Part shown: positions 1 to 34,167 of the stretch, piece after piece
Position numbering within the stretch: position 1 is the first letter of the stretch
How the letters are laid out: every line of letters starts with the position of its first letter
DNA from: Gemmatimonadales bacterium
Lineage (GTDB): Bacteria > Gemmatimonadota > Gemmatimonadetes > Longimicrobiales > Gaopeijiaceae
Reading direction: 5' to 3'
DNA length: 42,881 nt
NCBI GenBank assembly: GCA_007692665.1
Contig: REBP01000233.1
Location: 1-42,881, forward strand
Notes under the pieces: generated by a model
The model's input: the letters and a program-made list of their open reading frames with translations, nothing else
Databases searched by the model: none
Told to the model about the DNA's origin: nothing
Translations under genes and position numbers: made by a program

Positions 1-83
1 ATGCGGTCGTCGAAGATGCGAGGCTCCCCTTCGTGATGCGAAGAGGCGAGGGCGGCGGAGGAGGGATCCTTCCTGGCCGGCAT
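1..83 (-). CDS. Start of an unidentified gene running off the left edge
   Basis: Only the first 27 codons are present. They read MPARKDPSSAALASSHHEGE and then PRIFDDR, and continue past base 1. The case for a real gene is an ATG at 83 preceded by AGGAG with a 7-base spacer (bases 91-95), strong G/C preference at third codon positions, and a sigma70-like promoter about 165 bases upstream on the same strand. I do not recognise the family. The leader carries repeated GTGGAAA motifs, which would fit either a DnaA-box-bearing or a MraZ-type regulated gene, but the visible residues match neither DnaA nor MraZ convincingly. The product must be read from the neighbouring sequence. Confidence 0.5.
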   Translation of the reverse strand, partial: MPARKDPSSAALASSHHEGEPRIFDDR

Positions 84-384: not shown

Positions 385-3300
385 TCAGAACGACCACCCC
401 ATGGCCGCATAGACGGAGGCGCCCGGTCGTTTCCAGGAGGTCTCTCCCGCCCCGCCGCCTGCCACCCCCGAGAGGTGCATGCCCTGCAGCGGCACCGCAA
501 CGCCCACGCGCAGGAGCGCCTGCGACTGGAAGAGAAGCGAGTGAACCACCGCGATCTCCGCCCCCATCGAGGCCAGCGTGCGACCGGCGCTCTCCCCTTC
601 CCCGAGGGCCGAGGCCCCTCCCACCGTCCCCGCCACCCCGGCCGCATCCCCCCATAGCGAGCCCGCGATGCGGTCGGCGTGGACGGGAAGAACCCCTGCC
701 CCACGGTGCACGATGGCCAGGGGTACCCGAAGTTCGGCGCCGGCGCCCCAGGCCCGATCTCCCCCGCGGGTGCCCGCCTCGTAGCCCCGGACCTGGAAGA
801 CGCCGGGGATCCGGTCCCATGTCGCACCCAGGGGGCCTCCCCCCCCGCCCCCGCCCCCGCCGACGCGCAGCGTCGCTGCCCCCGCCCCCGGGCCTTCCGC
901 CGCTCCAGCCGCGCCCCGCAGCGCCAGCACGGGCGGAGCCCCGCCGGAGGCGGCGATTCCCCGGTCACCGAGGGAATGGAAGCTTCGGAGCGACAGGACG
1001 GCGTCGGCCAGGGACGCATCCCTCCCGGCCACGCCCCTCAGGGAATCCGGAAGCCCGGTTTCCTGCCGAGCCCGGAGGCGAAGGGTCACCTGGCTCCCCT
1101 GCTGGGGGCTCGGGTGGAAGGCATGGCTCCGCGCCGTCGTCCGGGCGAGGGTCGCCCCCAGCTGAACGAACTCCCGTACCGGACGCGCCAGGGCCGCCCG
1201 GTTCGAGAGGCTCCCGCCTTCCTCCAGCACCTGGATCTCCTGACGGATTCCCGAAAGGTCGAGAAGCGCCCGGTGCGAGGACCGGAATCGAGGGCGAAGG
1301 AGCGACGCCGACACCCCGGCGCTTCGCTCCCGGCTCGCGAGGTACAGGAAAGGCGACGCCCCGTCCGCGGCGGCCGGGCTGCCGGGGGCCTGCACCCGGG
1401 AAAGGGCGTCCCACCGCTGCCCCACCGAGGCACCCAGCACGGGGTTCCCGAGCCCCGCCCACGCCCACGACGCCGCGCCCTCCCACCGGCGCCCCGGGCC
1501 CCCGAGCGGGAAATCGACCCGGAGGTCCCACCGGTTCCGGTCCACGGCGTCGGCAGCCCAGCTCTCGAAGCCGAGGGTGGGCGCGAGAACCCTGGCCCCG
1601 CCCAGCGTCCCGGCAGCCTGCGCCGCAGGAAGCCAGTGGCGGGGACGGAGCGTCGAGATCGGAGACCAGGGGCGGACCTCCCCCTCGAGCCGCCCCAGGT
1701 GCCCGTCGGCCATGGCCCCCGCCGCGGGATCCCCCTCCCCGCCATGGGCGTGGTGCCGGGGGGCCAGGGGGAGGGGCGTGAACCCCCCGGGCCCGGCCAC
1801 CGCCCGCGTCTCCGCCTCGCCGAGCGGGAGGCGGGCCAGCTCCCACCCGTCGGCGGTGAGAAGGGAGAAGAGCACGTGACGTCCGTCGGGAGCGACCGTG
1901 GGGAACACCCCTGCCGTCACCAGGTCGGAAAGCTGGCGAATCCCGGATGCCGGGAAACCGTCGGCGCCGGCGGTGCCGACGTAGAGGTTCGCGACGCCGC
2001 TTCGCTCCGAACTCCAGACCACGTGCATTCCGTCGGGCATCCATGCGGTGCCGTGCACGGGCGCCCGGCCCTCCGACACGATGCGGATCACCGGTTCGGC
2101 AGGCGTGCGCCCGGCGCCCGCGGCACCTTCCTGCGGGGTCACCTCCACGATGGCCACGGCCCAGTTCCCCCCGGCGGTCCAACGGGTGAGCGCGAGCCTC
2201 GTGCCGTCGGGAGACCAGCGCGGGTGGGCCCAGTGGACGCCGGGGTCGGCCTCCGCGAGGGTACGGACGAGGTCGCCCTCCTCCGAGATCAGCACCAGCC
2301 GGTGAGATCCCGCCTCCTCGAGGACCGCCGCCAGGAGGCCTCCCTCCGGGTGGGCGTCGGCCATCGCCACCCGGAGACCACGGGTGACCTGGTGCCGACC
2401 ACCGTCGGGGGCGAAGCGCCAGAGGTCCGAACGGATCCGGTACCGGTCCACGTACTCCGGCTGCGCGGTCCAGAGGCTCCCGTCAGCCCCCCACGAGAGG
2501 GGTGACGCCATGTGGAGGGGGCCCAGGACGCGGTCCTCCGCCCTGTCACCCTCACCCCCGGCCCCACGCAGTACGACGGAAGCTTCCGTGCGTCCGTCGG
2601 ACCGCACCCAGGCCATGGCGCCGTCGCCGGGGCGGAAGACCGGGTAGAGGCCGACACGCGCACCTGCCGTCAGCAGTTCGGGGGCCGGAGCCAGGGCACG
2701 ACTGCGCACGACCTCCTCCAGCTCCCTCGCGTCTCTCTCGAGTTCGGCGATCCAGGTGGCGTGGAGCGCGTCCAGGGGCCGACCGAAGGCCTCCCGGGCG
2801 GTCGCGTTCAGCCGGAGCGGGTTGATGCGCCGGGCCTGGCGCCGGAAGAAGTCCCCGACGGCGTCCTCGCCCTCCGTCTCGGCAAGGTGATGGAAGAAGG
2901 GTCCACCCCATGCGTAGGGTCGCTCGCCCCCGGGAAAGACCGGGGAGCTTCCCATCACCTGATCGATGCGTTCTCCCTCGCCGGCCAGTACCCTGGCCCT
3001 GAGGATCGCATCGAAGCGCGCCCCGTGCATCCGGCCCCCGTCGGTTCCTGCCGATTCCGAATGGACCGCCACGCCCTCCACCGCCCACGTGGGGAGTGCG
3101 AACGCGGGAAAGTTGGGCCACGCGAGGGGGGCCCTGCCGAGGAGCAGGCGGCCCGCGCGTCCGAGGGGCCCCGTGAGCTCCAGGTGCAGGATGTGGACAA
3201 CCTCATGGGTGACCACGAGTTCGAGCCAGTCGTCGAACGGGATGGCCCCGGGACCCTCCACCGGCGGGCGGGCCCAGATGATGATCCGGGGATAGGGCGA

Positions 3301-3705
3301 AGCCCGCGCAAACCCGTTCGAGAGGTCCACGTGGTCCGTCACGACCAGCTGGATCCGCTCCCCCGGGCGGGCGCCGAACCCCTCCAGTCGCGCCATGGCC
3401 CGCTCCCCTCGTTCCGCGGCCCGGAAGGCCACCTCTTCCACCCCCTCGTGAAACACCACCTGGAAGTTCGGGGTTTGAAAGGTCAGCCACCGGGCATCGG
3501 GCGGAGGCGCCTGGCCTGCTGCACCCTCCGGAAGGGCGAGTGGGAGTGCCACGACCAGGGCCAGGACCGAGACCAGGACCGAGGCCAGCGCCAGGTCCAC
3601 GGCCCGGCGCCGTGGCACGGCCCGTGCAGGTCCGGGGAAGCGGCCGTGGCCGGCGACCGGGTGATTCTCCGGCTTCGTTCCAGTACCGCATTCCAGCTTC
3701 CGCAT
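385..3705 (-). CDS. Zinc-peptidase-like / TolB propeller / Omp85-like outer-membrane protein
   Basis: A 1106-residue exported protein with three parts. Residues about 36-65 form a hydrophobic signal segment. A gluzincin-like domain follows, with HEVVH at 167-171 and a downstream WAVEGVA whose Glu210 could be the third zinc ligand. The middle (about 340-660) holds PD40/TolB propeller repeats such as WSPDGTRLA, WMPDGMHVV and APDGRHVLF. The last 400 residues look like a beta-barrel: VRGY at 972-975 followed by AELRVPLA resembles the Omp85 loop-6 signature, and the chain ends in Phe (GWSF), as BAM substrates usually do. A nine-glycine run precedes the VRGY segment. The ATG at 3705 has a strong GAGGGAGGG ribosome site. 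Catalysis and barrel topology are inference; the domain order is seen. It lies only 32 bases from the divergent next gene. Confidence 0.8.
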   Translation of the reverse strand: MRKLECGTGTKPENHPVAGHGRFPGPARAVPRRRAVDLALASVLVSVLALVVALPLALPEGAAGQAPPPDARWLTFQTPNFQVVFHEGVEEVAFRAAERGERAMARLEGFGARPGERIQLVVTDHVDLSNGFARASPYPRIIIWARPPVEGPGAIPFDDWLELVVTHEVVHILHLELTGPLGRAGRLLLGRAPLAWPNFPAFALPTWAVEGVAVHSESAGTDGGRMHGARFDAILRARVLAGEGERIDQVMGSSPVFPGGERPYAWGGPFFHHLAETEGEDAVGDFFRRQARRINPLRLNATAREAFGRPLDALHATWIAELERDARELEEVVRSRALAPAPELLTAGARVGLYPVFRPGDGAMAWVRSDGRTEASVVLRGAGGEGDRAEDRVLGPLHMASPLSWGADGSLWTAQPEYVDRYRIRSDLWRFAPDGGRHQVTRGLRVAMADAHPEGGLLAAVLEEAGSHRLVLISEEGDLVRTLAEADPGVHWAHPRWSPDGTRLALTRWTAGGNWAVAIVEVTPQEGAAGAGRTPAEPVIRIVSEGRAPVHGTAWMPDGMHVVWSSERSGVANLYVGTAGADGFPASGIRQLSDLVTAGVFPTVAPDGRHVLFSLLTADGWELARLPLGEAETRAVAGPGGFTPLPLAPRHHAHGGEGDPAAGAMADGHLGRLEGEVRPWSPISTLRPRHWLPAAQAAGTLGGARVLAPTLGFESWAADAVDRNRWDLRVDFPLGGPGRRWEGAASWAWAGLGNPVLGASVGQRWDALSRVQAPGSPAAADGASPFLYLASRERSAGVSASLLRPRFRSSHRALLDLSGIRQEIQVLEEGGSLSNRAALARPVREFVQLGATLARTTARSHAFHPSPQQGSQVTLRLRARQETGLPDSLRGVAGRDASLADAVLSLRSFHSLGDRGIAASGGAPPVLALRGAAGAAEGPGAGAATLRVGGGGGGGGGPLGATWDRIPGVFQVRGYEAGTRGGDRAWGAGAELRVPLAIVHRGAGVLPVHADRIAGSLWGDAAGVAGTVGGASALGEGESAGRTLASMGAEIAVVHSLLFQSQALLRVGVAVPLQGMHLSGVAGGGAGETSWKRPGASVYAAMGWSF

Positions 3706-4235: not shown

Positions 4236-5952
4236 CCACGACGGGGATGCGGTGACCCCAGCGCCTCGCGGGCCGTTCGTCGCCGGGCAGCGTCCAGGCC
4301 TCGCCGCAGTCCACGAAGGCCCCGGTCTCGTCGATCCCCCGGGGTGACGAGGCCGGCGCGTCGGGCCCCACGATCCCCAGGAGGATGGCGTCCTCTCCCC
4401 AGTTCCGGATCCAGCAGAAGGCCTCGGGCCTGGACCGGAGGATCCCCGGAAGATAGCGTGGGGAGATCCCGTCGACGCGGTCGACGAGGAGGTAGCGGGC
4501 CCCGAGTTCCCCGGCCTGGTCCAGGAGGCGATCAGGGTCGTCGAAGAAGGGAAAGACCCGTCCGGGAGTGCCGCCCAGCGCGTGGAAGATGCGGGGCTTC
4601 CGGTTGATGACCACGGCGTCGCCGGGAAGATTGGCGCCGGCCCATGCCGCCGCATCCCGGAACCGCTGGAAGGGGGGCCCGTGGCACGCGAACGGGTCCG
4701 CCAGCCCCCACTCCCTGCAGGCCGCCGCCTGCTCGGCCCGCCCCAGGAGGCCGGGAGCCGCGGGAAGGAGCAGGAGGAGCAGCGCCGGAACGCCCAGCGC
4801 CCACGCGGCCCAGGGGGGCAGGAGGCGCCCGGTCGTCCTCGCGCGGAGACCGTCGAGACCGGCGCACACCGCCTCCGCTCCCCAGAAGAGCAGGAGCGGA
4901 TAGAGGGGAAGCACGAACCGGTCGCCGGACCAGACTTCGGGCCAGACCAGCACGAGGCCTCCGTAGAGGGGGAGGAAGAGTTCGGCGAGCCCGCCCTGGC
5001 CCCGGACGACGCGACGCCCCCACCCCACCAGGCCGAGGGTCAGGATGACCACCCCGAGGAAGGCCACCGGCCCGGGAGGGAGAGAGCTCCCCCACCACTC
5101 CCCGCCGAGCACGCTTGTCACGTAGAATTCGAGGTTGGTCCACGCACGTCCCGCGAGCCCCGCGACCCCGATGGTTCCCAACCCGGGGTCGTAGGGGTTC
5201 GCGAGCCAGAACTCGTCCTGGTAGGCCCCCTCTCCCGCCGCCCGGCCGCGGAGTATCCAGAGCAGGACCGGAAGGGCCGCCACGGCCACCGCGCTCCCCA
5301 GGGCTCGCCACCGCCGCCCCCACGCCAGCATGACCAGGAGGCCGAGGAGGAGGGGGAGTCCCGCTGTCCTCGTGAAGAGGGTCAGAAGCGCGGCCCCCGC
5401 CGCCACCGCGAGCCAGATCGCTTCGCGGGAGGAATCGGTCCGGGCCGGCGGCTCTGCCGGGAACCGCACCCGCAGCCACAGCCCCGCCCGATCCGCACTC
5501 CAGAGCGCCAGGAACACCGCCACCAGGAAGAGGGGCTCGGAGAGGATCCACCGCGAGGCCTCCACCCACCCCGTCGCCAGCACCGTCGCGATCGCCACGC
5601 CGGCACCGAAGGCGGGACCGCGCCGGGCCCCCGCCCACGCGAAGACCAGCAGCCCGGCCGTCGCCACGAGAACGGCGGACAGCAGCTTGAAGGCCCCCCA
5701 GGTGGAGGCGCCCGCAGCCATGAGGAGCGCCAGGAGGAGTGGGTAGGCCGGGGGGTACTTGGCGTGGGGAGGCTCGAAGGGGTCCCAGAGTTCCGTGTAA
5801 CCGGTGCCCGCGGCCAGCGAACTCGCCAGGGAGAGATAGGCCGCATTGTCCCCGCCGGAGTGGGGTGCGGGAAGGTGGACCGCCCAGAGAACGAGGCCGT
5901 GGACCAGCAGAAGCAGGCCCCCGGCAAGCCACCACCGCATCCCGGCGTTCAC
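4204..5952 (-). CDS. GT-C fold membrane glycosyltransferase (GT39/ArnT-like)
   Basis: A polytopic protein of about 582 residues with roughly ten hydrophobic segments, consistent with the GT-C superfamily that uses polyprenyl-phosphate sugars in the periplasm. The first extracytoplasmic loop has GGDNAAYL (33-40), where Asp35 would be the usual GT-C acidic catalytic residue, followed by KYPPAYPLLLAL (about 65-76). A soluble C-terminal domain of about 130 residues follows. I chose the GTG at 5952: it overlaps the anmK stop as GTGA and has GAGGGTGG 7 bases upstream; ATG at 5940 is the alternative. Coupling to anmK and murQ hints at a role linked to cell-wall sugars, but the substrate cannot be told from sequence. 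The 3' end overlaps a convergent gene by 32 bases. Confidence 0.8.
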   Translation of the reverse strand: MNAGMRWWLAGGLLLLVHGLVLWAVHLPAPHSGGDNAAYLSLASSLAAGTGYTELWDPFEPPHAKYPPAYPLLLALLMAAGASTWGAFKLLSAVLVATAGLLVFAWAGARRGPAFGAGVAIATVLATGWVEASRWILSEPLFLVAVFLALWSADRAGLWLRVRFPAEPPARTDSSREAIWLAVAAGAALLTLFTRTAGLPLLLGLLVMLAWGRRWRALGSAVAVAALPVLLWILRGRAAGEGAYQDEFWLANPYDPGLGTIGVAGLAGRAWTNLEFYVTSVLGGEWWGSSLPPGPVAFLGVVILTLGLVGWGRRVVRGQGGLAELFLPLYGGLVLVWPEVWSGDRFVLPLYPLLLFWGAEAVCAGLDGLRARTTGRLLPPWAAWALGVPALLLLLLPAAPGLLGRAEQAAACREWGLADPFACHGPPFQRFRDAAAWAGANLPGDAVVINRKPRIFHALGGTPGRVFPFFDDPDRLLDQAGELGARYLLVDRVDGISPRYLPGILRSRPEAFCWIRNWGEDAILLGIVGPDAPASSPRGIDETGAFVDCGEAWTLPGDERPARRWGHRIPVVVSPPPPRRLR

Positions 5953-7190
5953 GCCGTGTCCACCCTCTGTTCCCCCGGCATCCTCCGCGTTGCCGGGGTC
6001 GTTGCCGGGGTGAAGGACCCGAGGACCCGGGGCCCCGAGGCTCCGGTGACCTGCGGGAGGGAGCCGGGGATGCGGAGAAGGTGGGCCCAGGCGAGGAGGG
6101 CAAAGGCCGCCGCCTCCCGCGCATCCGGGTCGATCCCCAGCGCCTCCGCCCCGGTGAGCACGGGCACCGGTCCCACCTCGCGGGCGAGCGCCGCCCCGAT
6201 GGCCCGCACGAGGGTGGAATGCCGGGCGCCCCCCCCGGTGAGGACCACCTCGTCGACCTCCGCCACCGGCAGGTACTCCCGGTAGCTCCGGGCCACGGAA
6301 CGGGCCGTGACCTCCACCAGCGTCGCCAGGAGATCGTCCGGCGCGAGGTCCGGGTGGTCCCGCAGGATCTCCTCCATGCGTGCGTCCCCGAAGCGCTCCC
6401 GCCCCGTGGAGCGGGGGGGCGGCTCGTCGAGGAAGGGATCGGCGAGGAGCGCGTCGAGGAGCGCCGGGTGGACGGTTCCCCGGGCGGCTCGGCGGCCGTC
6501 CATGTCGAAGGGGAGCGCCATTTCCGGGCCGTCCCCACCGCGCGTCCGCATCCACGCGGCGTCCAGGAGCGCGACGCCGGGGCCGGTGTCGAAGGCCCGG
6601 ACGCGGTCCGGCTCCCCGTCTGCCGGCAGGAAGGTCACGTTCCCCATGCCGCCGAGGTTCTGGAGGGCCCGCCCCACGCCGGGGCGGTGAAGGAGCACGC
6701 GGTCGGCCCAGGGCACGAGGGGAGCGCCGTGTCCCCCGGCCGCCATGTCCCGGGCCCGGAAGTCGTGGACCACCGCGATCCCGGTGCGCTCGGCCAGCGT
6801 GGCGGGGTCGCCGAGCTGGAGGGTCCAGCCGCGGCCGCCTGCCGCCGGGGGCTCGTGCCAGATCGTCTGCCCGTGCGACCCGATGGCGTCGACCTCTTCG
6901 GGCGCGACGGCGGCGCCCCGGAGCAGCTCGAGGAACGCCGACGCGAAGCCCTCGCCGAGGGCCACATGCAGCCGCGAAAGTGCGCGGGCATCGGCCCCTC
7001 CGGGCGTCATGGCGCGTCGCATCTCCCCCAGGACCCCCGCGTCCCACGGGAAGGTCCCGAAGGCCACCACCTCCCAGCGGAGTGCGTCGGGACCCGAGCC
7101 TTCGACGCGCAGGAGAAGCGCATCGATGCCGTCCATGGAGGTCCCCGACATGAGCCCCCCGACCAGGCGCGAGCCGGAAACGGGCGTCAC
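5949..7190 (-). CDS. anmK: Anhydro-N-acetylmuramic acid kinase
   Basis: A 413-residue protein that matches the AnmK family in length and motifs. GLMSGTSMDGID at 12-23 is the family's N-terminal signature. SHGQTIWHEP, FDTGPGVALLDAAW and the late VVLTGGGARHSTL supply the sugar- and ATP-binding parts of the sugar-kinase/ASKHA fold. The enzyme phosphorylates and hydrolyses 1,6-anhydro-MurNAc to MurNAc-6-phosphate, which MurQ, encoded just upstream, converts to GlcNAc-6-phosphate. The GTG start at 7190 overlaps the murQ stop (GTGA) and has GGGGAAGGGG just upstream. The cytosolic kinase therefore sits in the middle of a coupled murQ-anmK-glycosyltransferase operon. Confidence 0.95.
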   Translation of the reverse strand: MTPVSGSRLVGGLMSGTSMDGIDALLLRVEGSGPDALRWEVVAFGTFPWDAGVLGEMRRAMTPGGADARALSRLHVALGEGFASAFLELLRGAAVAPEEVDAIGSHGQTIWHEPPAAGGRGWTLQLGDPATLAERTGIAVVHDFRARDMAAGGHGAPLVPWADRVLLHRPGVGRALQNLGGMGNVTFLPADGEPDRVRAFDTGPGVALLDAAWMRTRGGDGPEMALPFDMDGRRAARGTVHPALLDALLADPFLDEPPPRSTGRERFGDARMEEILRDHPDLAPDDLLATLVEVTARSVARSYREYLPVAEVDEVVLTGGGARHSTLVRAIGAALAREVGPVPVLTGAEALGIDPDAREAAAFALLAWAHLLRIPGSLPQVTGASGPRVLGSFTPATTPATRRMPGEQRVDTA

Positions 7191-8104
7191 GGCGCCCCTT
7201 CCCCGCCGGCGGCGATGCCCTCGATTCCGGCAACTCGCCCTCCCGCCCGGGCGATCTCGGCCTCGGCCGCCTCCCGGGGGACCCCCAGGTGCCCCATGAC
7301 GAGGGCCGTCTTCACCCGGCCCCCGGCGTCGTGGAGGAGCCTTCGGGCCTCGGCGGCCTCCACCCCCAGCGTGGCCCGGAGGATGCGCTCCCCCCGGTCC
7401 TGGAGCTTGGCACAGGTGACCTGGAGGTCGACCATGAGGTTCCCCCAGGTCTTCCCCGCGAGGACCATGGCGCCGGTGGTCAGCGTGTTCAGGACGAGCT
7501 TCGTGGCGGTGCCGGCCTTCATGCGGGTGGAGCCGGTGACGATCTCGGGTCCGGTAAGGGGCGCGATGACGACGTCATGGAGCGCCTGGAGCGCGGGAGG
7601 CGGCGGCGTGCAGAGGAGGAAGCCGGTGCGGGCCCCGAGTTCCCGGGCCCGGGCCAGCGCCCCGTGCACGTAGGGGGTGGTGCCGGAGGCGGCGATGCCC
7701 AGGACGAAGTCCCCGCTCCGCACCCCGCGGGCCTCGAGGTCGCGGGCGCCGTCCTCGGGGCGGTCCTCCGCGCCTTCCCGGGCCCGGACCAGCGCCTCGT
7801 ATCCCCCGGCGATGATCCCCTGCACGAGGTCCGGCTCGGTGCCGAAGGTGGGGGGCATCTCGGCGGCATCGAGGACCCCCAGGCGCCCGCTGGTCCCGGC
7901 CCCGACATAGAAGAGCCGCCCGCCCGCCGCGAAGGTGGAGGCCACGAGTTCCACGCCCCGGGCGATGGCCTCGCTCTCCGCCGCCACCGCCTCGGCCACG
8001 GTCCGGTCCTCGGCCTGGATCAGCGCCACCAGCTCGCGCGCCGACAGCCGGTCCAGGTTCCGGCTTCGGGGGTTCCGCTGTTCGGTGAGGCGGTCGTCGA
8101 GCAT
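7187..8104 (-). CDS. murQ: N-acetylmuramic acid 6-phosphate etherase
   Basis: MurQ cleaves the lactyl ether of MurNAc-6-phosphate, giving GlcNAc-6-phosphate and D-lactate. The 305 residues from ATG 8104 match the family length and begin with the typical LTEQRNPRSRNLD. The SIS domain shows GAGTSGRLGVLDAAE at 68-82, with Glu82 in the catalytic position, then ASGTTPY and GSTRMKAGTATK. The frame is open upstream (in-frame starts at 8170 and 8242), but those would overlap the divergent M20 gene or its start, and homology begins at 8104. Its ribosome site is weak. First gene of the murQ-anmK-GT operon; no recycling permease or NagZ is present in this window. Confidence 0.94.
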   Translation of the reverse strand: MLDDRLTEQRNPRSRNLDRLSARELVALIQAEDRTVAEAVAAESEAIARGVELVASTFAAGGRLFYVGAGTSGRLGVLDAAEMPPTFGTEPDLVQGIIAGGYEALVRAREGAEDRPEDGARDLEARGVRSGDFVLGIAASGTTPYVHGALARARELGARTGFLLCTPPPPALQALHDVVIAPLTGPEIVTGSTRMKAGTATKLVLNTLTTGAMVLAGKTWGNLMVDLQVTCAKLQDRGERILRATLGVEAAEARRLLHDAGGRVKTALVMGHLGVPREAAEAEIARAGGRVAGIEGIAAGGEGAP

Positions 8105-8186
8105 GGCGGGATCCGGGGGTCGGGTGTATGGTTTGCCGGCCGCCCGTGCCGGCGGCTCGAAGCTAACCATCCGTGCATGGAGACGC

Positions 8187-9461
8187 ATGACCCCGACGCC
8201 CCCCCGCAACGCCTCGACCGCCCACCCGACGGCCGACCCCACCTCGGACCTGCTTGTCCGCGCGAGGCACCTTGCCCCCGAACTCGTGGCGCTCCGCCGG
8301 GAGTTTCACCGGCACCCGGAACTGTCCTTCCAGGAGCACCGCACCGCGGCACGGGTGGCGGAGGCGCTGCGCGGCATGGGGTACGAGGTCCGGACCGGGG
8401 TGGCGCGCACCGGGGTCGTGGCCGAGCTTCGGGTGGGTCCGGAGGGGGGGGCGGACGCCGGCAGCAGCCGCACCGTGGCCCTTCGCGCCGACATGGACGC
8501 GCTCCCGATCCAGGAGGCCAATGCGCACGACTTCGTCTCCGAGACACCGGGGGTCATGCATGCCTGCGGCCACGACGCGCACGTGGCGGGCCTCCTGGGC
8601 GCCGCCCGCCTGCTCGCCGACCTCCAGCGGGAGGGGCACCTTCCGACAGGCCGGGTTCGTCTCCTCTTCCAGCCGTCGGAAGAGACGATGGATGCGGAGG
8701 GGAAGAGCGGGGGCCGGAGGATGGCAGAAGAGGGCGCCATGGCGGGGGTGCACGCCGTCGTGGGGCTGCACGTCGGCGCCCACCTCGAGTGCGGGCGGGT
8801 GTACCTCGCGCCGGGCCCCTTCTTCGGGGGCGCCGACACCATCCACATCCGGGTGGAGGGGCGGGCCGCCCACGCCGCGCGCCCCCACGAGGGGGTGGAC
8901 GCCCTGGTCCTGGCAGCCCAGGGCGTGCTGGCCGCCCAGATGGCCGTGTCCAGGCGCATCGCCCCGGAGCGGCGGGGTGTCGTCTCCCTCGGGACCATCC
9001 GGGGGGGCGTGGCCCACAACATCGTCTGCGACCGGGTGGAGATCGAGGGAACGCTCCGCTACTTCGAGCCCGAGGTCCGGGCAGCGCTCCGGCAGGCGGT
9101 GACCGAGGCCTTCACGGCCCTCGAGACCCAGGGGGCCACGGTGCAGGTGACCTTCGTCGACGGCTACCCCCCGGTGGTGAACGACGCGGCGACGACGACA
9201 AGGGTGAGGGCGGCCTCGGCGCGGGTGGCCGGGGCCGGCGTGCTCATGTCGGAGGAGGCCTCGGAAGCCGCCATGACCGCCGAGGACTTCTCGTTCCTCG
9301 CCGCCCGGGCGCCGGGCGCGTTCTTCTGGCTCGGTGCCGCCCTTCCCGACGCCCGGGAACACCATCATCCCCGGTTCGACATCGACGAGGAGGTGATCCC
9401 CCTGGGGGCCGCCCTCCTGGCCGGTGCGGCCATCGAACTGCTGAACCCCGAACCCCGTTGA
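8187..9461 (+). CDS. M20-family amidohydrolase (hippurate/IAA-amino acid hydrolase type)
   Basis: A 424-residue M20D metallo-amidohydrolase. It carries HRHPELSFQE (41-50), ADMDALPIQE (101-110), the metal site HACGHDAH (125-132, with Cys127 and His129), FQPSEE with the catalytic/metal glutamates 165-166, GLHV (His195) and a C-terminal EHHHPRFD. Such enzymes remove acyl groups from amino acids or cleave small amide conjugates; the exact substrate is not predictable. No clear signal peptide is seen, so it is probably cytoplasmic. ATG 8187 is preceded by GGAGA. Only 3 bases separate it from the downstream gamma-glutamyltransferase, so the two are probably co-transcribed and may act in sequence on imported peptides. 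It is divergent from murQ. Confidence 0.9.
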   Translation: MTPTPPRNASTAHPTADPTSDLLVRARHLAPELVALRREFHRHPELSFQEHRTAARVAEALRGMGYEVRTGVARTGVVAELRVGPEGGADAGSSRTVALRADMDALPIQEANAHDFVSETPGVMHACGHDAHVAGLLGAARLLADLQREGHLPTGRVRLLFQPSEETMDAEGKSGGRRMAEEGAMAGVHAVVGLHVGAHLECGRVYLAPGPFFGGADTIHIRVEGRAAHAARPHEGVDALVLAAQGVLAAQMAVSRRIAPERRGVVSLGTIRGGVAHNIVCDRVEIEGTLRYFEPEVRAALRQAVTEAFTALETQGATVQVTFVDGYPPVVNDAATTTRVRAASARVAGAGVLMSEEASEAAMTAEDFSFLAARAPGAFFWLGAALPDAREHHHPRFDIDEEVIPLGAALLAGAAIELLNPEPR

Positions 9462-26966: not shown

Positions 26967-27491
26967 ATGCTGCGAGCCACCCGCCGGATCCTCGTTGTCG
27001 CACTCCTTCTCGGCGCCTGGATGGACGTTGCCGAAGCCCAGTCGGGCGGAACCCTGGGCTCGGTGCTCGCCGGGGTCCAGGGCACCGATCCGGAGCCCCA
27101 TCTCTTCGCGGGGGTCGGCGGAGGCTACCTCGTGAATGCCCGCCTGGGTGGTGAAGGCGTGGCCCTCCTCGGCGGAGGGGGCTACCGGTCCATTCTGGTC
27201 GGCGGGGGGCCGTCCGCGGTGGTGCTGGATGCACCCCGCGCGCAGGTGCGGCTCTGGGGCGGCCCTGCGTGGTACCGGGAATCGCTGGCGCCCTCGGACG
27301 CCGCGGCAGAGTCTTCCAGGGCGGTCCGGGGCACCGGCGCGGTCATGGCAGGGCTCACGGCCCGCGCCCCGATGGGCCGTGTCGCCCTCACGGGTGGGCT
27401 CCTCTTCTGGACCGGGCGCTTCGAGGAAACCGGCTTCGAGCGGAGCGAGGCCGTTCACGGATTTCGGGTCACCCTCGGGGTCTCCCGATGA
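26967..27491 (+). CDS. Secreted 174-residue protein, possibly a small beta-barrel
   Basis: I do not recognise a family. A signal peptide with probable cleavage after AEA (residues 22-24) is followed by glycine-rich, strand-like sequence: LFAGVGGGYLVNARLGGEG, VALLGGGGYRSILVGGG, AQVRLWGGPAWY and VALTGGLLFWTGRFEETG. Alternating hydrophobic/glycine strands and a final beta-strand with VTLGVSR suggest a small outer-membrane barrel or periplasmic beta protein. It has no strong ribosome site. Its stop overlaps the start of the 934-residue metzincin lipoprotein as ATGA, implying coupled production with that surface protein. Confidence 0.75.
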   Translation: MLRATRRILVVALLLGAWMDVAEAQSGGTLGSVLAGVQGTDPEPHLFAGVGGGYLVNARLGGEGVALLGGGGYRSILVGGGPSAVVLDAPRAQVRLWGGPAWYRESLAPSDAAAESSRAVRGTGAVMAGLTARAPMGRVALTGGLLFWTGRFEETGFERSEAVHGFRVTLGVSR

Positions 27492-30292
27492 GTGCCGCAC
27501 CGATGCGTTCCGCACCGAAGAGTCGAGCACCCCGCCTGCCCCCGTCCGCGCGCCTCGTCGCCCTCGTGCTGCTGGCCGCGGGCGTCGCCTCCTGCGACAG
27601 CTCCCCTCTCCTCTTCCCTTCGCCGGAGGGGCTGGAACTCGCTTCCGGGAACCACGGAAGCGGAACCATCCGGGGGACGGCGGGCGAGGTCCTGATTCCG
27701 GCCCTGCGGGTCCGCGTGGTGGACGGAAGCGGGAACCCGGTGCCCAACGCAACCGTGCGCGTCGAAGTGGAGGGAGGAGGCGGATCGGTGGCCAGGAGCG
27801 AGCTGGCATCAAACCGGCATGGGCAGTTGGTGGTGGAAGGATGGAGGCTGGGCGAGACCGCGGGGGCCAACCGACTGCGCCTCCAGGTGAGCGCCCACGG
27901 CAGTACCTCGCTCGGAGGTGCCGCGGGGCCGCAGCTCCTCCTGGAAGCCGACGGGGTACCCGGTGCGGCCAGCCGGATCCTTTCCGTCGGGCCGCCACCT
28001 CCGGCCCTCGAAGGGACCGTGGGAGAGCCGCTGCCGGCCGACGTGAGGTTCCGCATCGAGGACCGGTTCGGAAACCCGGTCCCTGGTGTCGACGTGACCT
28101 TTGCCCTCCCCTCGGGTTCCGGCACCGTGACCTCCGCTGCCGCCCGGACCGATGCCGCCGGCGAAATCACGCCGGGGAGCTGGACGCTGGGCCCGGAGGC
28201 CGGCCCGCAACTCCTTCGGGCGGTGGCCGTCGGCGTGGCGGGCGTCGCCATGGAGATCGAGGCACTGGCCCGCCCCGGAGTGGCCGACCGCATCCGCCTC
28301 GAAGGGGAGCTTCCGGAAACCGCTCCGGCAGGGGAACGGCTTGGCGATCAGGTGGACGCGCTACCCGGTGTACGGGTGGTGGACGCGTTCGGGAACCCGC
28401 TGCCCGACATCCAGGTGTCCGTGACCCCTCTGGCGAACTCCGGCACCGTGGACCCCTCCACGCTGGACACGGGCCCCACGGGTACCGAAGGCCGGCTCCC
28501 CGACTGGACCCTGGGCACGCGCCCCGGGAGGCAGGGCCTGCGCCTGGAAGCCCAGGGTCTTGCCGGCGTCCCCCCTCTCGATGTCGTCCTCGAGGCTACG
28601 GACGGGGAGGTCGGGGCCTGGCAGGTGAATGCCGTCCACGTGAACCAGGGAAACCAGACCTTCCGGGGGAGTGTCCCGCTGGTGGCCGGCAGACCGGGAC
28701 TTCTTCGGGTGTTCCTCCAGGGGAGCACCGGGTCCCCCCCGGGAATCCGTGTCAGGATCCGGATCCGGCAGGGTACCGCCGTCGTGCTCGACGAGGTCGT
28801 GAGCCGAGCCGGGGGGGGCGGCATCCAGGCTTCGGAGCCCGAACCCGACGACGAAGGGCGCTCCTGGAATCTGCCCCTCGCGGCGGGACTGCTTCAGCCT
28901 GGGGCCGAACTCCGGGTCGACGTGGATCCGGACGAACTGCTGCTCCCCGCGCCCCTGCTCCCCGTGACCTGGCCGGAGGGTGGCGGGTGGCAGCCGCTGG
29001 ACGTTCGGGAACTCCCGACCTTCCGCGCCACCTTCATCCCCATCCAGATCACCCAGTCCGGTCTTACGGGACGCATCACCCCCGCCAATCTCCAGGAGTA
29101 CGTGGGTCCCACCGTGGACCAGTTTCCCATCGGAGCCGTGGACTTCGAGGTCCGCACCGACCCCATGGTCTACGACGGCAGTTTCGATGCCCCGGGACCG
29201 GCCTGGGTGGCGATCCTCGAGGACATCCGGGACCTGCGCCTGGCGGAAGGGGGCCACGACCGCTACTACCACGGCATCCTCCGGCGCCCCCCCGGCCCGG
29301 GGATCGCCGGGATCGCCTACGTCGCCACCCGACCTCAGGGGATCGACAACCTTGCGGCGGTTTCCTTCGACGAGCTCCCCACGGCCGGCCCTGTCATCGC
29401 CCATGAATTCGGCCACAACTTCGGCCGCAACCACGCGCCCTGCGGAAACCTGATCGGGGTTGATCCCGCCTTCCCGCACCCGGGGGGGGAACTGGGAAGT
29501 CCCGGCTACTCGGCCGCCACGGGCATGCTTCGGCCCACCACCGGCTTCCGCGACGTCATGGGGTACTGCTTTCCCTTCTGGGCCTCGGACTACACGTTCG
29601 GCGCGATCCGCGCGATGCGCGAGGCGCGACCCCTCGGGATCTCGCTGGGAACGCACCTGGGCATGCGCACCGGACCGGGCCACGGCGTCCGGGAGGGGAT
29701 CCTGGTCGGGGGGAGCTGGTCCGGCAGCATGGCAACCCGCCTCCGGCCGGCGATCCGGCTGGAAGCCCCGGCGACACCCACCGACCCCGGTGGCGAGGTC
29801 CTCATCCAGGTCCTGGATGCCGGCGGCGCCGTCCTCTCCTCCGGCCGGTACCCCGGGGCCCGGCTGGACCATGCGGACGACCCCACGCTCCGCCATTTCG
29901 GGGCCGTCCTTCCGCTCCCCGCAGGGTCGGGAGCTCCCGCCGCCATCCGCGTGACGACCCCGGGGGGGGTGGCCGTCCTCGCCACCTCTCCGGCCCCGGC
30001 GGACGCGGCGCCGGTGGTGGTCAGCGTGGTGTCGGCGGCACCGCAGCCGGGCGCCGACGACCCGACGGCCTCGGGACCATGGACGCGCATCCGGTGGGAC
30101 GCGGAGACCTTCCCGGTCCTCGTGCTCCGAGAGGCCGAAACCGGCCGGATCCGCGGGTTCCTGCGATCAGGAGACGCGCTCGTTGCGGGTCCCAGCCCCA
30201 CCCACGGTGCGCCGGCCCTGCGGCTGGACCTCTCCGACGGGGTCCGCACGCTGGAGTCCGTCCCGACCCGTGCGGAGCCGCCTCAACGCTGA
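27488..30292 (+). CDS. Ig-like repeat lipoprotein with a metzincin zinc-protease domain
   Basis: A 934-residue lipoprotein (lipobox VASC, Cys36). Residues about 55-385 hold three Ig-like, Big_1-type repeats, each with a V.D..GNP.P core (GSGNPVPNATV, RFGNPVPGVDV, AFGNPLPDIQV). After a linker domain (about 385-510) comes a metallopeptidase region: HEFGHNFGRNH at 639-649 is the full metzincin HExxHxxGxxH zinc motif and VMGYC at about 690 is the Met-turn. The tail (about 740-934) is beta-rich. The protein is probably outer-membrane anchored and cuts extracellular protein or glycoprotein; M66-like enzymes are the nearest concept, but the exact clan family is uncertain. ATG 27488 overlaps the previous stop. 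Confidence 0.87.
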   Translation: MSAAPMRSAPKSRAPRLPPSARLVALVLLAAGVASCDSSPLLFPSPEGLELASGNHGSGTIRGTAGEVLIPALRVRVVDGSGNPVPNATVRVEVEGGGGSVARSELASNRHGQLVVEGWRLGETAGANRLRLQVSAHGSTSLGGAAGPQLLLEADGVPGAASRILSVGPPPPALEGTVGEPLPADVRFRIEDRFGNPVPGVDVTFALPSGSGTVTSAAARTDAAGEITPGSWTLGPEAGPQLLRAVAVGVAGVAMEIEALARPGVADRIRLEGELPETAPAGERLGDQVDALPGVRVVDAFGNPLPDIQVSVTPLANSGTVDPSTLDTGPTGTEGRLPDWTLGTRPGRQGLRLEAQGLAGVPPLDVVLEATDGEVGAWQVNAVHVNQGNQTFRGSVPLVAGRPGLLRVFLQGSTGSPPGIRVRIRIRQGTAVVLDEVVSRAGGGGIQASEPEPDDEGRSWNLPLAAGLLQPGAELRVDVDPDELLLPAPLLPVTWPEGGGWQPLDVRELPTFRATFIPIQITQSGLTGRITPANLQEYVGPTVDQFPIGAVDFEVRTDPMVYDGSFDAPGPAWVAILEDIRDLRLAEGGHDRYYHGILRRPPGPGIAGIAYVATRPQGIDNLAAVSFDELPTAGPVIAHEFGHNFGRNHAPCGNLIGVDPAFPHPGGELGSPGYSAATGMLRPTTGFRDVMGYCFPFWASDYTFGAIRAMREARPLGISLGTHLGMRTGPGHGVREGILVGGSWSGSMATRLRPAIRLEAPATPTDPGGEVLIQVLDAGGAVLSSGRYPGARLDHADDPTLRHFGAVLPLPAGSGAPAAIRVTTPGGVAVLATSPAPADAAPVVVSVVSAAPQPGADDPTASGPWTRIRWDAETFPVLVLREAETGRIRGFLRSGDALVAGPSPTHGAPALRLDLSDGVRTLESVPTRAEPPQR

Positions 30293-31109: not shown

Positions 31110-33866
31110 TCAGGGAGCCGTGACGGGCACACCAGCAGTGACGAGACCATCGGAGGTGGCGTTCAGCCCCACCGCGTGGATCTCGTTGCCAGCCGCGACA
31201 CCGGAGACCGTGAAGGTCCACCGGAAGTCGCGCCGCACGCCGTCGTCGGCGAACGGGAAGCCATCGGTCGGCGTGATGTTCGCCAGGGCGAGCACACGCA
31301 CGTTCGTGCCTTCACGCTCCACGATCGCGACGGCTGCGAAGGGGTTGGTGAAGGTCGAGGCAAGGCCCCGGGCCTGGACGTAGCCGGTCACCGTGCGGTT
31401 GTCGGCATCGTCACCGGTCTGGTTGGTCACGGTGAGCACCCAGCCCATGTTGTTCGTGGCAGGGTCACCGAAGTCGATGTCGTTCCAGGTATCGGCATCC
31501 GGCGCAGCAACCTGCTGTGCCGAGATCCCCGCGGTCGTCGCGGAGATGCCGGTTCCGGTCTGCCACGGACGCTCCACGGACGGGAAGCCCGAGTGGACGT
31601 GTCCGACGGCCATGTTCGGCCGCGAAGGCGCCGTCGCCACCGGGATGTCATCGCCACCCACACCCGTGAGGGAGCGGATCAGCGAACCGGTGTTGAAGGT
31701 GAGGAACTGCGGGCGCGTGATGATGTCGGTGAACTTCATCCCGTCGCTCTCGACCGGCGTGACGTCGTTCCACACCGTGAGGTCGACCCCGAAGATGCCG
31801 GGGTACTGGAGACCGAAGGACGTCGAGAGGATTTCCACCTCGTCGTCGGCCACGGCCTGGAACTCGATGTCATCGCCGCCGGCCCAGGGGAGGCTGATCG
31901 CCGTCTGGAGCTCCTGCACGATGGTCGGGCTCTCACCGTCGTTCACGTACACGAGGCGGGCCAGGATCGGGCTGGTGTTACCGGCCTGGTCACGGGCACG
32001 AACCTGGTAGATGTAGTACCCGGGCTCGGTTGCCACGGCGCCGAAGTCAAGGCTGTTCGTGATCAGCGTCGGCGAGTGGTTGTAGGTCGTGACCTGCGCA
32101 GGCACGACGGCCACGAAGGTGCCGCCGGCGACGGTCGCGAACGGAGTGGCGCCGACTGCTGCGCCCGTGCCAGCCACGAGAATCTCGCGGTTGAGCGCGG
32201 TCGGAGACGCCAGGTAGTTCCCGGTCACGCGGACCAGGTTGTGCTCCATGCCGGTACGCGTCAGCGCATCGGTCTGCGCGAACCCGGAGAGGTTGTCCAT
32301 GGCCTGGAAGTTGAACAGCGCCGTGTCCGAGGCCGAAGCCACGTCCACGGTGGTCGTGTCGGACCGGAACGTGTTGGCCGTCATCGTGTCCCACTGAACT
32401 TCGGGAACGTTCTTGTCCACGCCGAAGGTCGCAAGCGGGTTCACCGTTCCAACGGCCGTCTGGCTGATGACGCGGCTGTTCCCGAGGCGGTCCTGAACGA
32501 CGGCCTGAACGTTGTAGACTTCATTGGTCAGCGAGTTGGCCAGCGGCGACGGGGTGGTCACCCCGGTCTCGATGACGGTGGTCCCCTGACGCACGCGGAA
32601 GGTGCGCTCGGAACCGGCAGGCGTCGGCAGGCCGACACCCGTGTCCGTCGGAGCCGTGTAGCCCGCCGCGAAGCTGTAGTCGCCGCGCACCCAGTTGGCC
32701 CGGTTGCCGACGCTGGGGATCTGCGTGATGACGATGGCGCCGCCCTGCGGAGCCACGCGGTCGATACGCACCGGGAACGGATGCGCCGACAGCCCGAAGC
32801 GGGCCGTGTTGTTCAGGATTGCCGTCGGGCCGGTGTTGCCGGCGACCACGGAGGAGAACGTCGGCGCGAGGCCCATGGCCTCGATGTCGGCGCAGGTCCG
32901 CGTGAAGGTGTACGGAGCCGTGGTGTCCGTGCTCGTACCACAGAAGTTCATCGTCACGGAAGCCACGTCGCCGCCGTCGAAGAGCACGGGGAACGCGGTG
33001 ATGGTGGTGCTGAAGTCGTCACCGCCGTACCAGATGCGCCCCTGACTATCCGTGGCGCTGTTGTTCTCGGTCAGGTTGGTCTTGACGTGGAACCCGCTCG
33101 TGTTGTTGAAGCGGACCGGCACGGTGTTCGAGGGCCGGTTCGCATCGGCTCCCACCACTTCGAGGGCGGCGGAGATGACACGGTCGCCGTTCATGTGACG
33201 CGGCGTGGCCGTTCCGGCGGCTTCATTGATGGTGTAGAAGTCCGTCCGGAAGGAGAGGGTGATCTGCTGAAGGGCTTCGGCGATCTCGTCGGCAGACATG
33301 TCGGCCATGGCAGACGTGAAGACCTGCGAAGCAACCTCGACGCCGTCGACGTACAGCACGACGCGCTGGATGGTCTCGTCGCGGGGGTTCACGTTCAGCG
33401 TGACGTCGATCTGACCGGAGATGTTCTCGATGTCGACGGGCTCGCCACCCTGCTGGATGCTGGCGATGGTGATCGTGGCCGGAGCCACGGTCACGGAGGT
33501 GACGGTCACCTGGGCGCCGGCGTTTGCCGACTGGTTGCCCTTGGTCACCGTGACGGTGATGGAGGCGTTACCCGCGGCGACGCCGGTGGCACGGCACCCG
33601 GTGTCGGTGGTGGCGACGGACGCCACACCCGAGGCGGAGGAGGAGCAGGTCCAGGAAGCCTGGGTACCCGTGGCACCTCCGGTAACGCCAACGGCGAAGT
33701 CGGCGACCGCGCCCACGCCAATGGACTGGTTCGACGGGGTGAGGGTCACCGAGAGCGGCGGCGGCGGGGTGGGCTCGGGCTCGACGATGGTGACATCGTC
33801 TCCACAAGCGGCCACGCCCAGCGCCAGTACTCCGGCGAACAGAGCGGAACGGTAGAGCTTCTTCAT
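31110..33866 (-). CDS. Large Ig-like surface lipoprotein of unknown function
   Basis: A 918-residue lipoprotein (MKKLYRSALFAG, lipobox VAAC, Cys21). A short proline spacer leads to one Big_2-type Ig domain at about 33-125, with a cysteine pair (SWTCSS and GCRATG) likely to form a disulfide. The remaining 790 residues are a long beta-rich array without a recognised catalytic motif; phrases such as YYIYQVRARDQAGN and VVLYVDGVEVAS resemble tandem Ig/FnIII-like modules, and NFCGTST with RTCADIE could form a second disulfide. ATG 33866 has AAGGGGG 4 bases upstream; an upstream in-frame start is rejected because the signal peptide begins here. Probably a surface-exposed adhesin or structural protein; that is inference. 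Codon third positions look less G/C-biased than in the neighbours. Confidence 0.85.
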   Translation of the reverse strand: MKKLYRSALFAGVLALGVAACGDDVTIVEPEPTPPPPLSVTLTPSNQSIGVGAVADFAVGVTGGATGTQASWTCSSSASGVASVATTDTGCRATGVAAGNASITVTVTKGNQSANAGAQVTVTSVTVAPATITIASIQQGGEPVDIENISGQIDVTLNVNPRDETIQRVVLYVDGVEVASQVFTSAMADMSADEIAEALQQITLSFRTDFYTINEAAGTATPRHMNGDRVISAALEVVGADANRPSNTVPVRFNNTSGFHVKTNLTENNSATDSQGRIWYGGDDFSTTITAFPVLFDGGDVASVTMNFCGTSTDTTAPYTFTRTCADIEAMGLAPTFSSVVAGNTGPTAILNNTARFGLSAHPFPVRIDRVAPQGGAIVITQIPSVGNRANWVRGDYSFAAGYTAPTDTGVGLPTPAGSERTFRVRQGTTVIETGVTTPSPLANSLTNEVYNVQAVVQDRLGNSRVISQTAVGTVNPLATFGVDKNVPEVQWDTMTANTFRSDTTTVDVASASDTALFNFQAMDNLSGFAQTDALTRTGMEHNLVRVTGNYLASPTALNREILVAGTGAAVGATPFATVAGGTFVAVVPAQVTTYNHSPTLITNSLDFGAVATEPGYYIYQVRARDQAGNTSPILARLVYVNDGESPTIVQELQTAISLPWAGGDDIEFQAVADDEVEILSTSFGLQYPGIFGVDLTVWNDVTPVESDGMKFTDIITRPQFLTFNTGSLIRSLTGVGGDDIPVATAPSRPNMAVGHVHSGFPSVERPWQTGTGISATTAGISAQQVAAPDADTWNDIDFGDPATNNMGWVLTVTNQTGDDADNRTVTGYVQARGLASTFTNPFAAVAIVEREGTNVRVLALANITPTDGFPFADDGVRRDFRWTFTVSGVAAGNEIHAVGLNATSDGLVTAGVPVTAP

Positions 33867-34167
33867 GCATCCCCCTTGAGGGTGTTTAACGTGCCCTTTC
33901 GAGCACCGTGGATGTTGTCCGACCCGTCCGGGTCTGGACCTTCGGGTGTCGGACCACCTGGCCCGAACGGGTTCCCGCGTACTTCCGAGGTCGGAGAAGA
34001 GCACGTCCCGTGCCACGTTGACCCACCGCGAAAACCCGCGCCATTGTTGACGTTTCCCAGATACCGCGCGGGATTCCGGCGGCAGTACTCAGGATTTTTC
34101 GGGGGTGCCCCACGGATTTCCGAGGGGGGCTCGGCCAGCCCTCGTACCGTGAACCCTCCGAACCCGA
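33867..34167. other. Intergenic region upstream of the large lipoprotein gene
   Basis: About 300 bases without a supportable gene. It must hold the promoter of the 918-residue lipoprotein gene, but I could not find a good -35/-10 pair. Two overlapping minus-strand frames read across it without a ribosome site and with poor third-position bias, and are rejected. Confidence 0.6.

Follow-up and report, generated by a model that had tools for sequence, protein, structure and literature searches.

A three-domain protein of the Gemmatimonadota with a gluzincin-like peptidase domain, a TolB-like propeller and an Omp85-type barrel

Among the genes in the window, a stretch of 42,881 nucleotides that makes up the whole of contig C185 in a 4.23-Mb assembly of 258 contigs, is one whose product (P0001) combines a gluzincin-like zinc peptidase domain, a TolB-like beta-propeller and a C-terminal Omp85-type barrel. 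With relatives of the same layout in nearly every Gemmatimonadota genome sampled, this three-domain protein looks like a built-in protein-cutting device at the outer membrane. The reading that we prefer, with a probability of roughly 0.6, is that P0001 is an active, membrane-tethered peptidase facing the periplasm, its substrate being left aside. By analogy with known systems its likeliest job would be to process proteins of the outer membrane, or of the envelope at large, by proteolysis or to control their quality, a more tentative proposal to which we give distinctly less than even odds.

The gene is an intact open reading frame of 1106 codons on the minus strand (385..3705) with an ATG start, supported by the open reading frame list, the translation and relatives in the genomes of the phylum. 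The initial annotation had placed it at 385–3705, and these coordinates proved exact; a plus-strand reading of the same interval is interrupted by stops and was discarded. Translation may in fact begin downstream of the annotated ATG. Residues 1–66 (3508..3705, minus strand) form an N-terminal export signal region, in which sequence and alignment reveal a hydrophobic stretch at about residues 36–58 and an AxA-Q-like cleavage region, with no lipobox, suggesting a signal peptide. A full-length AlphaFold2 model (pLDDT 79.9, pTM 0.82) recovered the three domains, in keeping with the anatomy first proposed, namely a gluzincin fold, a TolB-like propeller and an Omp85 barrel with no POTRA domain. All of the motifs that had been claimed are present: HEVVH (residues 167–171), WAVEG (207–211, containing E210), PD40, VRGY (972–975) and the terminal Phe1106. 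The closest named relatives of P0001 are in the Gemmatimonadota, at no more than 66% identity. Since orthologues of similar length and the same domain order lie on single-contig chromosomes (for example G017, G058, G069 and G070), an assembly chimera was ruled out, and the gene does not owe its structure to a joint made in assembly.

The gluzincin (clan MA) metallopeptidase domain (residues 67–345; 2671..3507, minus strand) was assigned from an AlphaFold2 model, PDB fold matches and residue invariance. About residues 67–345, aligned with 48 divergent family members (alignment A2), gave a model with a pLDDT of 89.2 and a pTM of 0.89. In a Foldseek search of the PDB, all 50 matches listed were zinc metallopeptidases, chiefly M9 collagenases and M1 aminopeptidases, the highest TM-score among these being 0.60 to lugdulysin (M30). 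The HEVVH zinc motif lies at 3193..3207 and E210, the predicted third zinc ligand, at 3076..3078 (both minus strand). On sequence grounds H167, E168, H171 and E210 are the HExxH...E set of the gluzincins; they are unvaried in 31 orthologues. Loss of the zinc residues in relatives was looked for as evidence against such a site and was not seen, all four being kept in 120 of 120 divergent relatives, across which only they, Y264 and G267 are fully invariant. The gluzincin-like character suggested initially is thus upheld by HExxH plus a downstream Glu in all 120 relatives and by fold matches to M9, M1 and M30. Y264 (2914..2916, minus strand) stands 54 residues past E210, presumably where M1-type gluzincins carry their transition-state tyrosine, and gluzincin topology makes it a candidate for that role. 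Compared with the orthologue at L008, this is the most conserved of the three domains (75% identity, dN/dS about 0.19). Some zinc-peptidase folds are non-catalytic, and the domain might serve as a scaffold or receptor that binds peptides without cutting them; we regard this as very improbable, for the H-E-H-E set and the Tyr are invariant in 120/120, including the base Glu168, which would be needless in a mere zinc-binding scaffold.

Sequence matches of the family's peptidase domain are weak only, to BSP, DUF1570, Peptidase_MA_2 and M9. P0001 itself matched neither Peptidase_MA_2 (PF13485) nor BSP (PF04450), for which the best values among relatives were a weak 1.1e-4 and 3.3e-5, respectively, and no curated peptidase family reached its cut-off in P0001. 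M48 (PF01435) gave no match in P0001 and weak ones in five of 49 peptidase domains (best 0.0048). PF00149, which we take to be the calcineurin-like phosphoesterase family and not a gluzincin, had no match in P0001 either. It is this last family that PMC4104836 assigns to a 'Metallo' Omp85 subfamily, named metalloprotease-Omp85.

The propeller (residues 346–640; 1786..2670, minus strand) carries PD40 repeats, detected by Pfam in P0001 (E-value=6.8e-9) and present in all 31 close orthologues. The family profile matches TolB structures (E-value=1e-21) and the P0001 model matches TolB by fold. P0001 and TolB have this fold and the PD40 repeats in common; their N-terminal domains differ, and P0001 scored 28.1 bits against the TolB equivalog TIGR02800, whose cut-off is 343. 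In addition, contig C52 encodes a full-length TolB-like protein (252.8 bits over positions 9–418, below the curated cut-off), so P0001 was ruled out as a TolB replacement.

The Omp85-type outer-membrane barrel occupies residues 690–1106 (388..1638, minus strand). Its best fold match in the PDB is Deinococcus radiodurans BamA (E-value=1.8e-9; TM-score 0.66 by target length). A barrel of 16 strands had been anticipated; the predicted structure contains about 15 clear strands together with short ones at residues 692–707, which is compatible with that number, and in the DSSP string the VRGY loop is followed by five strands, which is also the case in BamA. The VRGY motif of loop 6, which fits the Omp85 pattern [VI]RG[FY], is preceded by a VGG motif and the chain ends in Phe, an aromatic residue as in the Omp85 superfamily; in a strict search, the RG motif was found in 50 of 60 orthologues and the terminal F in 56 of them. 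PF01103 gave no match in P0001 itself; it matched 23 of the 31 orthologues (best 1.9e-9) and was above the cut-off in the paralogues P0002 and P0003. No POTRA domain was matched by Pfam in P0001. The initial annotation had drawn attention to the propeller and peptidase in the place of POTRA, and this part of its claim stands, but substitution of a propeller for POTRA had already been described in the WD40-Omp85 proteins (PMC4104836).

A search for homologs with the same domain order found many in the Gemmatimonadota, so that P0001 does not stand alone as a fusion. Of 298 Gemmatimonadota genomes, 212 contain relatives, mostly one per genome, although some of the weaker matches among the 212 may be paralogues. 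The source genome carries three such proteins, P0001, P0002 (contig C78) and P0003 (contig C100), the latter two having the same domain order with HELVH and IRGY/MRGY motifs. Relatives of P0003 were found in 119 of 121 genomes of the phylum, some outside the class to which the window belongs, and in 58 of 59 genomes of near relatives. In a tree of the peptidase-propeller part the P0001 group stands apart from that of P0002 and P0003. A third, smaller subgroup combining HE[YF][GA]H with a propeller (L109:1402-4359:+, L113:529-3678:- and L115:1234-4407:+) is hosted by family f5 and related genomes; its divergent C-terminus of about 350 residues lacks PF01103 and a clear RGY motif, and mostly ends in RP.

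A peptide-pattern search of genome contigs, which reaches close relatives only, gave matches in Gemmatimonadota only, and a plasmid search with P0001 gave none. With P0003, the plasmid search returned a 633-amino-acid protein of Salinibacter ruber plasmid pSR116 (WP_118831798.1; L170:4929-6830:+), annotated as 'basic secretory protein-like protein' and 45% identical to P0003, the sole relative found outside the Gemmatimonadota. It possesses a peptidase domain and a propeller but ends after the propeller, without a barrel, which indicates that the peptidase-propeller unit can exist without the membrane part. The next gene appears by eye to be of the serine carboxypeptidase type and not a split barrel.

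WD40-Omp85 proteins without POTRA were described by Heinz and Lithgow in 2014 and likened to a BamA-BamB fusion (PMC4104836). P0001 has their layout, that is, a TolB-like propeller directly N-terminal to an Omp85 barrel and no POTRA; since the subfamily was already described, the replacement of POTRA by a propeller is not new. The difference lies in the invariant gluzincin domain ahead of the propeller, none being mentioned in the text of PMC4104836. A literature search covering few subscription journals revealed no WD40-Omp85 protein described as carrying an HExxH domain, and within the same scope the near-universal presence of gluzincin-WD40-Omp85 proteins in the Gemmatimonadota was not found described. 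Compared with the WD40-Omp85 description, the features for which this search found no earlier account are the leading, invariant peptidase domain and the phylum-core status. Proteins of the WD40 type were still considered not well characterised in 2024 (PMC11116518).

Like P0001, PlpD and other patatin-like Omp85 proteins carry an enzyme domain N-terminal to the barrel, probably in the periplasm (PMC11116518); PlpD has a lipase and POTRA where P0001 has a zinc peptidase and a propeller. Secretion of the PlpD enzyme domain had been expected, type Vd secretion having once been proposed, but the domain was then shown to be periplasmic (PMC11116518), which by analogy favours an enzyme domain that stays in the periplasm over one that crosses the membrane. 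The layout of an enzyme-Omp85 fusion could also be that of a secretion device, the barrel delivering the two N-terminal domains to the outer face of the cell for the digestion of external protein, and the barrel-less Salinibacter relative fits this in that the module can work apart. With the PlpD domain proved periplasmic (PMC11116518), a folded propeller and peptidase far too big for such a pore and no processing site seen, we consider surface delivery decidedly improbable.

A further precedent is BepA, an M48 zinc peptidase with clients at the BAM complex (PMC8423444). It combines, as P0001 is predicted to, an HExxH...E zinc site, a place in the periplasm and action at an Omp85 protein (PMC8423444), and differs in being a separate M48 protein with TPR; P0001 is one chain without an M48 match, in which a propeller replaces the TPR. 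The source genome also encodes BamA-type POTRA proteins (BamA on contig C33) and four M48 peptidases, so that P0001 is not an obvious BepA replacement; as a BamA replacement it was ruled out by the BamA-type POTRA-Omp85 protein in the genome. P0001 might nevertheless be a self-contained assembly factor, with a BamA-like insertase barrel, a propeller in place of the BamB/TolB platform and a peptidase that trims or removes stalled clients. Omp85 members studied before PlpD function in OMP assembly or translocation, the family is near-universal in the phylum, and the comparison of WD40-Omp85 to a BamA-BamB fusion by Heinz and Lithgow (PMC4104836) points the same way. Set against this are the canonical POTRA-containing BamA in the same genome and PlpD, which suggests that an Omp85 barrel is not necessarily an insertase, and we think an assembly role unlikely.

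P0001 lies in a conserved block with the order murQ, anmK, amidase or glycosyltransferase, P0001 gene and ribonucleotide reductase. In the window, all on the minus strand, these are murQ (N-acetylmuramic acid 6-phosphate etherase; 7187..8242, start approximate; TIGR00274 above cut-off), anmK (anhydro-N-acetylmuramic acid kinase; 5949..7190, start approximate; PF03702 E-value=1e-97, NF007148 above cut-off), a multi-TM glycosyltransferase-like protein directly upstream of P0001 (4204..5940; weak PMT_2 match in relatives) and the 5' end of the ribonucleotide reductase gene (1..83), of which the contig end leaves the first 27 codons only (MPARKDPSSAAL..., matching the ribonucleotide reductase start on contig C67). 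At the end of C67 (L071:5506-5934:-) lies the C-terminal part of a copy with 80% identity to P0001, followed by ribonucleotide reductase; as C67 aligns to the window end at 82–84% DNA identity, this is probably the same locus, contributed to the assembly by another strain or species.

Among 21 distinct relatives, ribonucleotide reductase is closely downstream in 20, and 16 of the 21 loci carry murQ, anmK or both no more than about 6 kb upstream. In the four f5-family loci examined, the upstream gene specifies an N-acetylmuramoyl-L-alanine amidase (Amidase_3). This neighbourhood hints at the cell wall, and these conserved genes, for peptidoglycan recycling and ribonucleotide reductase and not for OMP assembly, count against our preferred reading, as do the missing PF01103 match and the lack of any curated peptidase family above its cut-off in P0001, and the BamA-type and M48 proteins of the genome. 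P0001 might instead cut peptidoglycan peptides or wall-bound lipoproteins near the outer membrane and so feed MurQ/AnmK recycling, as the frequent murQ and anmK and, in one family, the adjoining Amidase_3 gene would suggest. Ribonucleotide reductase, the other constant neighbour, has no such role, however, and the block may be conserved synteny only; moreover, MurQ and AnmK are cytoplasmic, the paralogues P0002 and P0003 have different neighbours, and we know of no gluzincin that acts on peptidoglycan. A role as a cell-wall enzyme is accordingly doubtful.

Several other proteins were noted. Contig C194 of the source genome (L067:2737-5982:+) contains a 1082-amino-acid open reading frame with an alpha/beta hydrolase domain (PF00561, E-value=5.5e-15) and an Omp85 barrel (PF01103, E-value=1.9e-13), a further enzyme-Omp85 fusion without POTRA. 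On contig C163 (L070:5644-7566:-) a 641-amino-acid Omp85-like barrel protein with VRGY and no recognised N-terminal domain scored just below the PF01103 cut-off. In the window itself, the 1045-amino-acid product of 27155–30292 (plus strand) possesses Big_1 Ig-like repeats and a weak match to a reprolysin-like zinc peptidase, making it a possible surface metallopeptidase, and the sole match of a 992-amino-acid open reading frame at 31110–34088 (minus strand) is a weak Ig-like one (Big_2).

Under the preferred reading of P0001 as a periplasm-facing peptidase, the protein would be exported by way of its N-terminal signal and its C-terminal barrel would insert in the outer membrane, a step well supported by homology. 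Going by the topology of Omp85 proteins and by the case of PlpD, we expect the propeller and gluzincin domain on the periplasmic side, where other Omp85 proteins have POTRA. The propeller could provide docking or present substrates, and the zinc site (H167, H171 and E210) with E168 and Y264, a residue set defined by conservation, would hydrolyse peptide bonds. P0001 may in this way correspond, within one chain, to BepA working on BAM. The initial annotation had proposed that the protein captures, cuts or moves other proteins, which stays conjectural although the catalytic set is intact. A bolder version of our reading, which we consider rather unlikely, is a phylum-core envelope machine in one chain, with an Omp85 insertase barrel that brings along both a propeller for client docking and a zinc protease; if true, OMP assembly versus destruction would be decided within a single polypeptide.

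The outer-membrane biology of the Gemmatimonadota is little studied; that 119 of 121 genomes contain relatives, and some of these genomes several paralogues, suggests a basic envelope function. The invariant zinc site provides a testable biochemical activity for the WD40-type Omp85 proteins, and, next to PlpD, it would give a second enzyme class in favour of the view that Omp85 barrels can serve as anchors for enzymes of the periplasm, beyond their roles in insertion and translocation.
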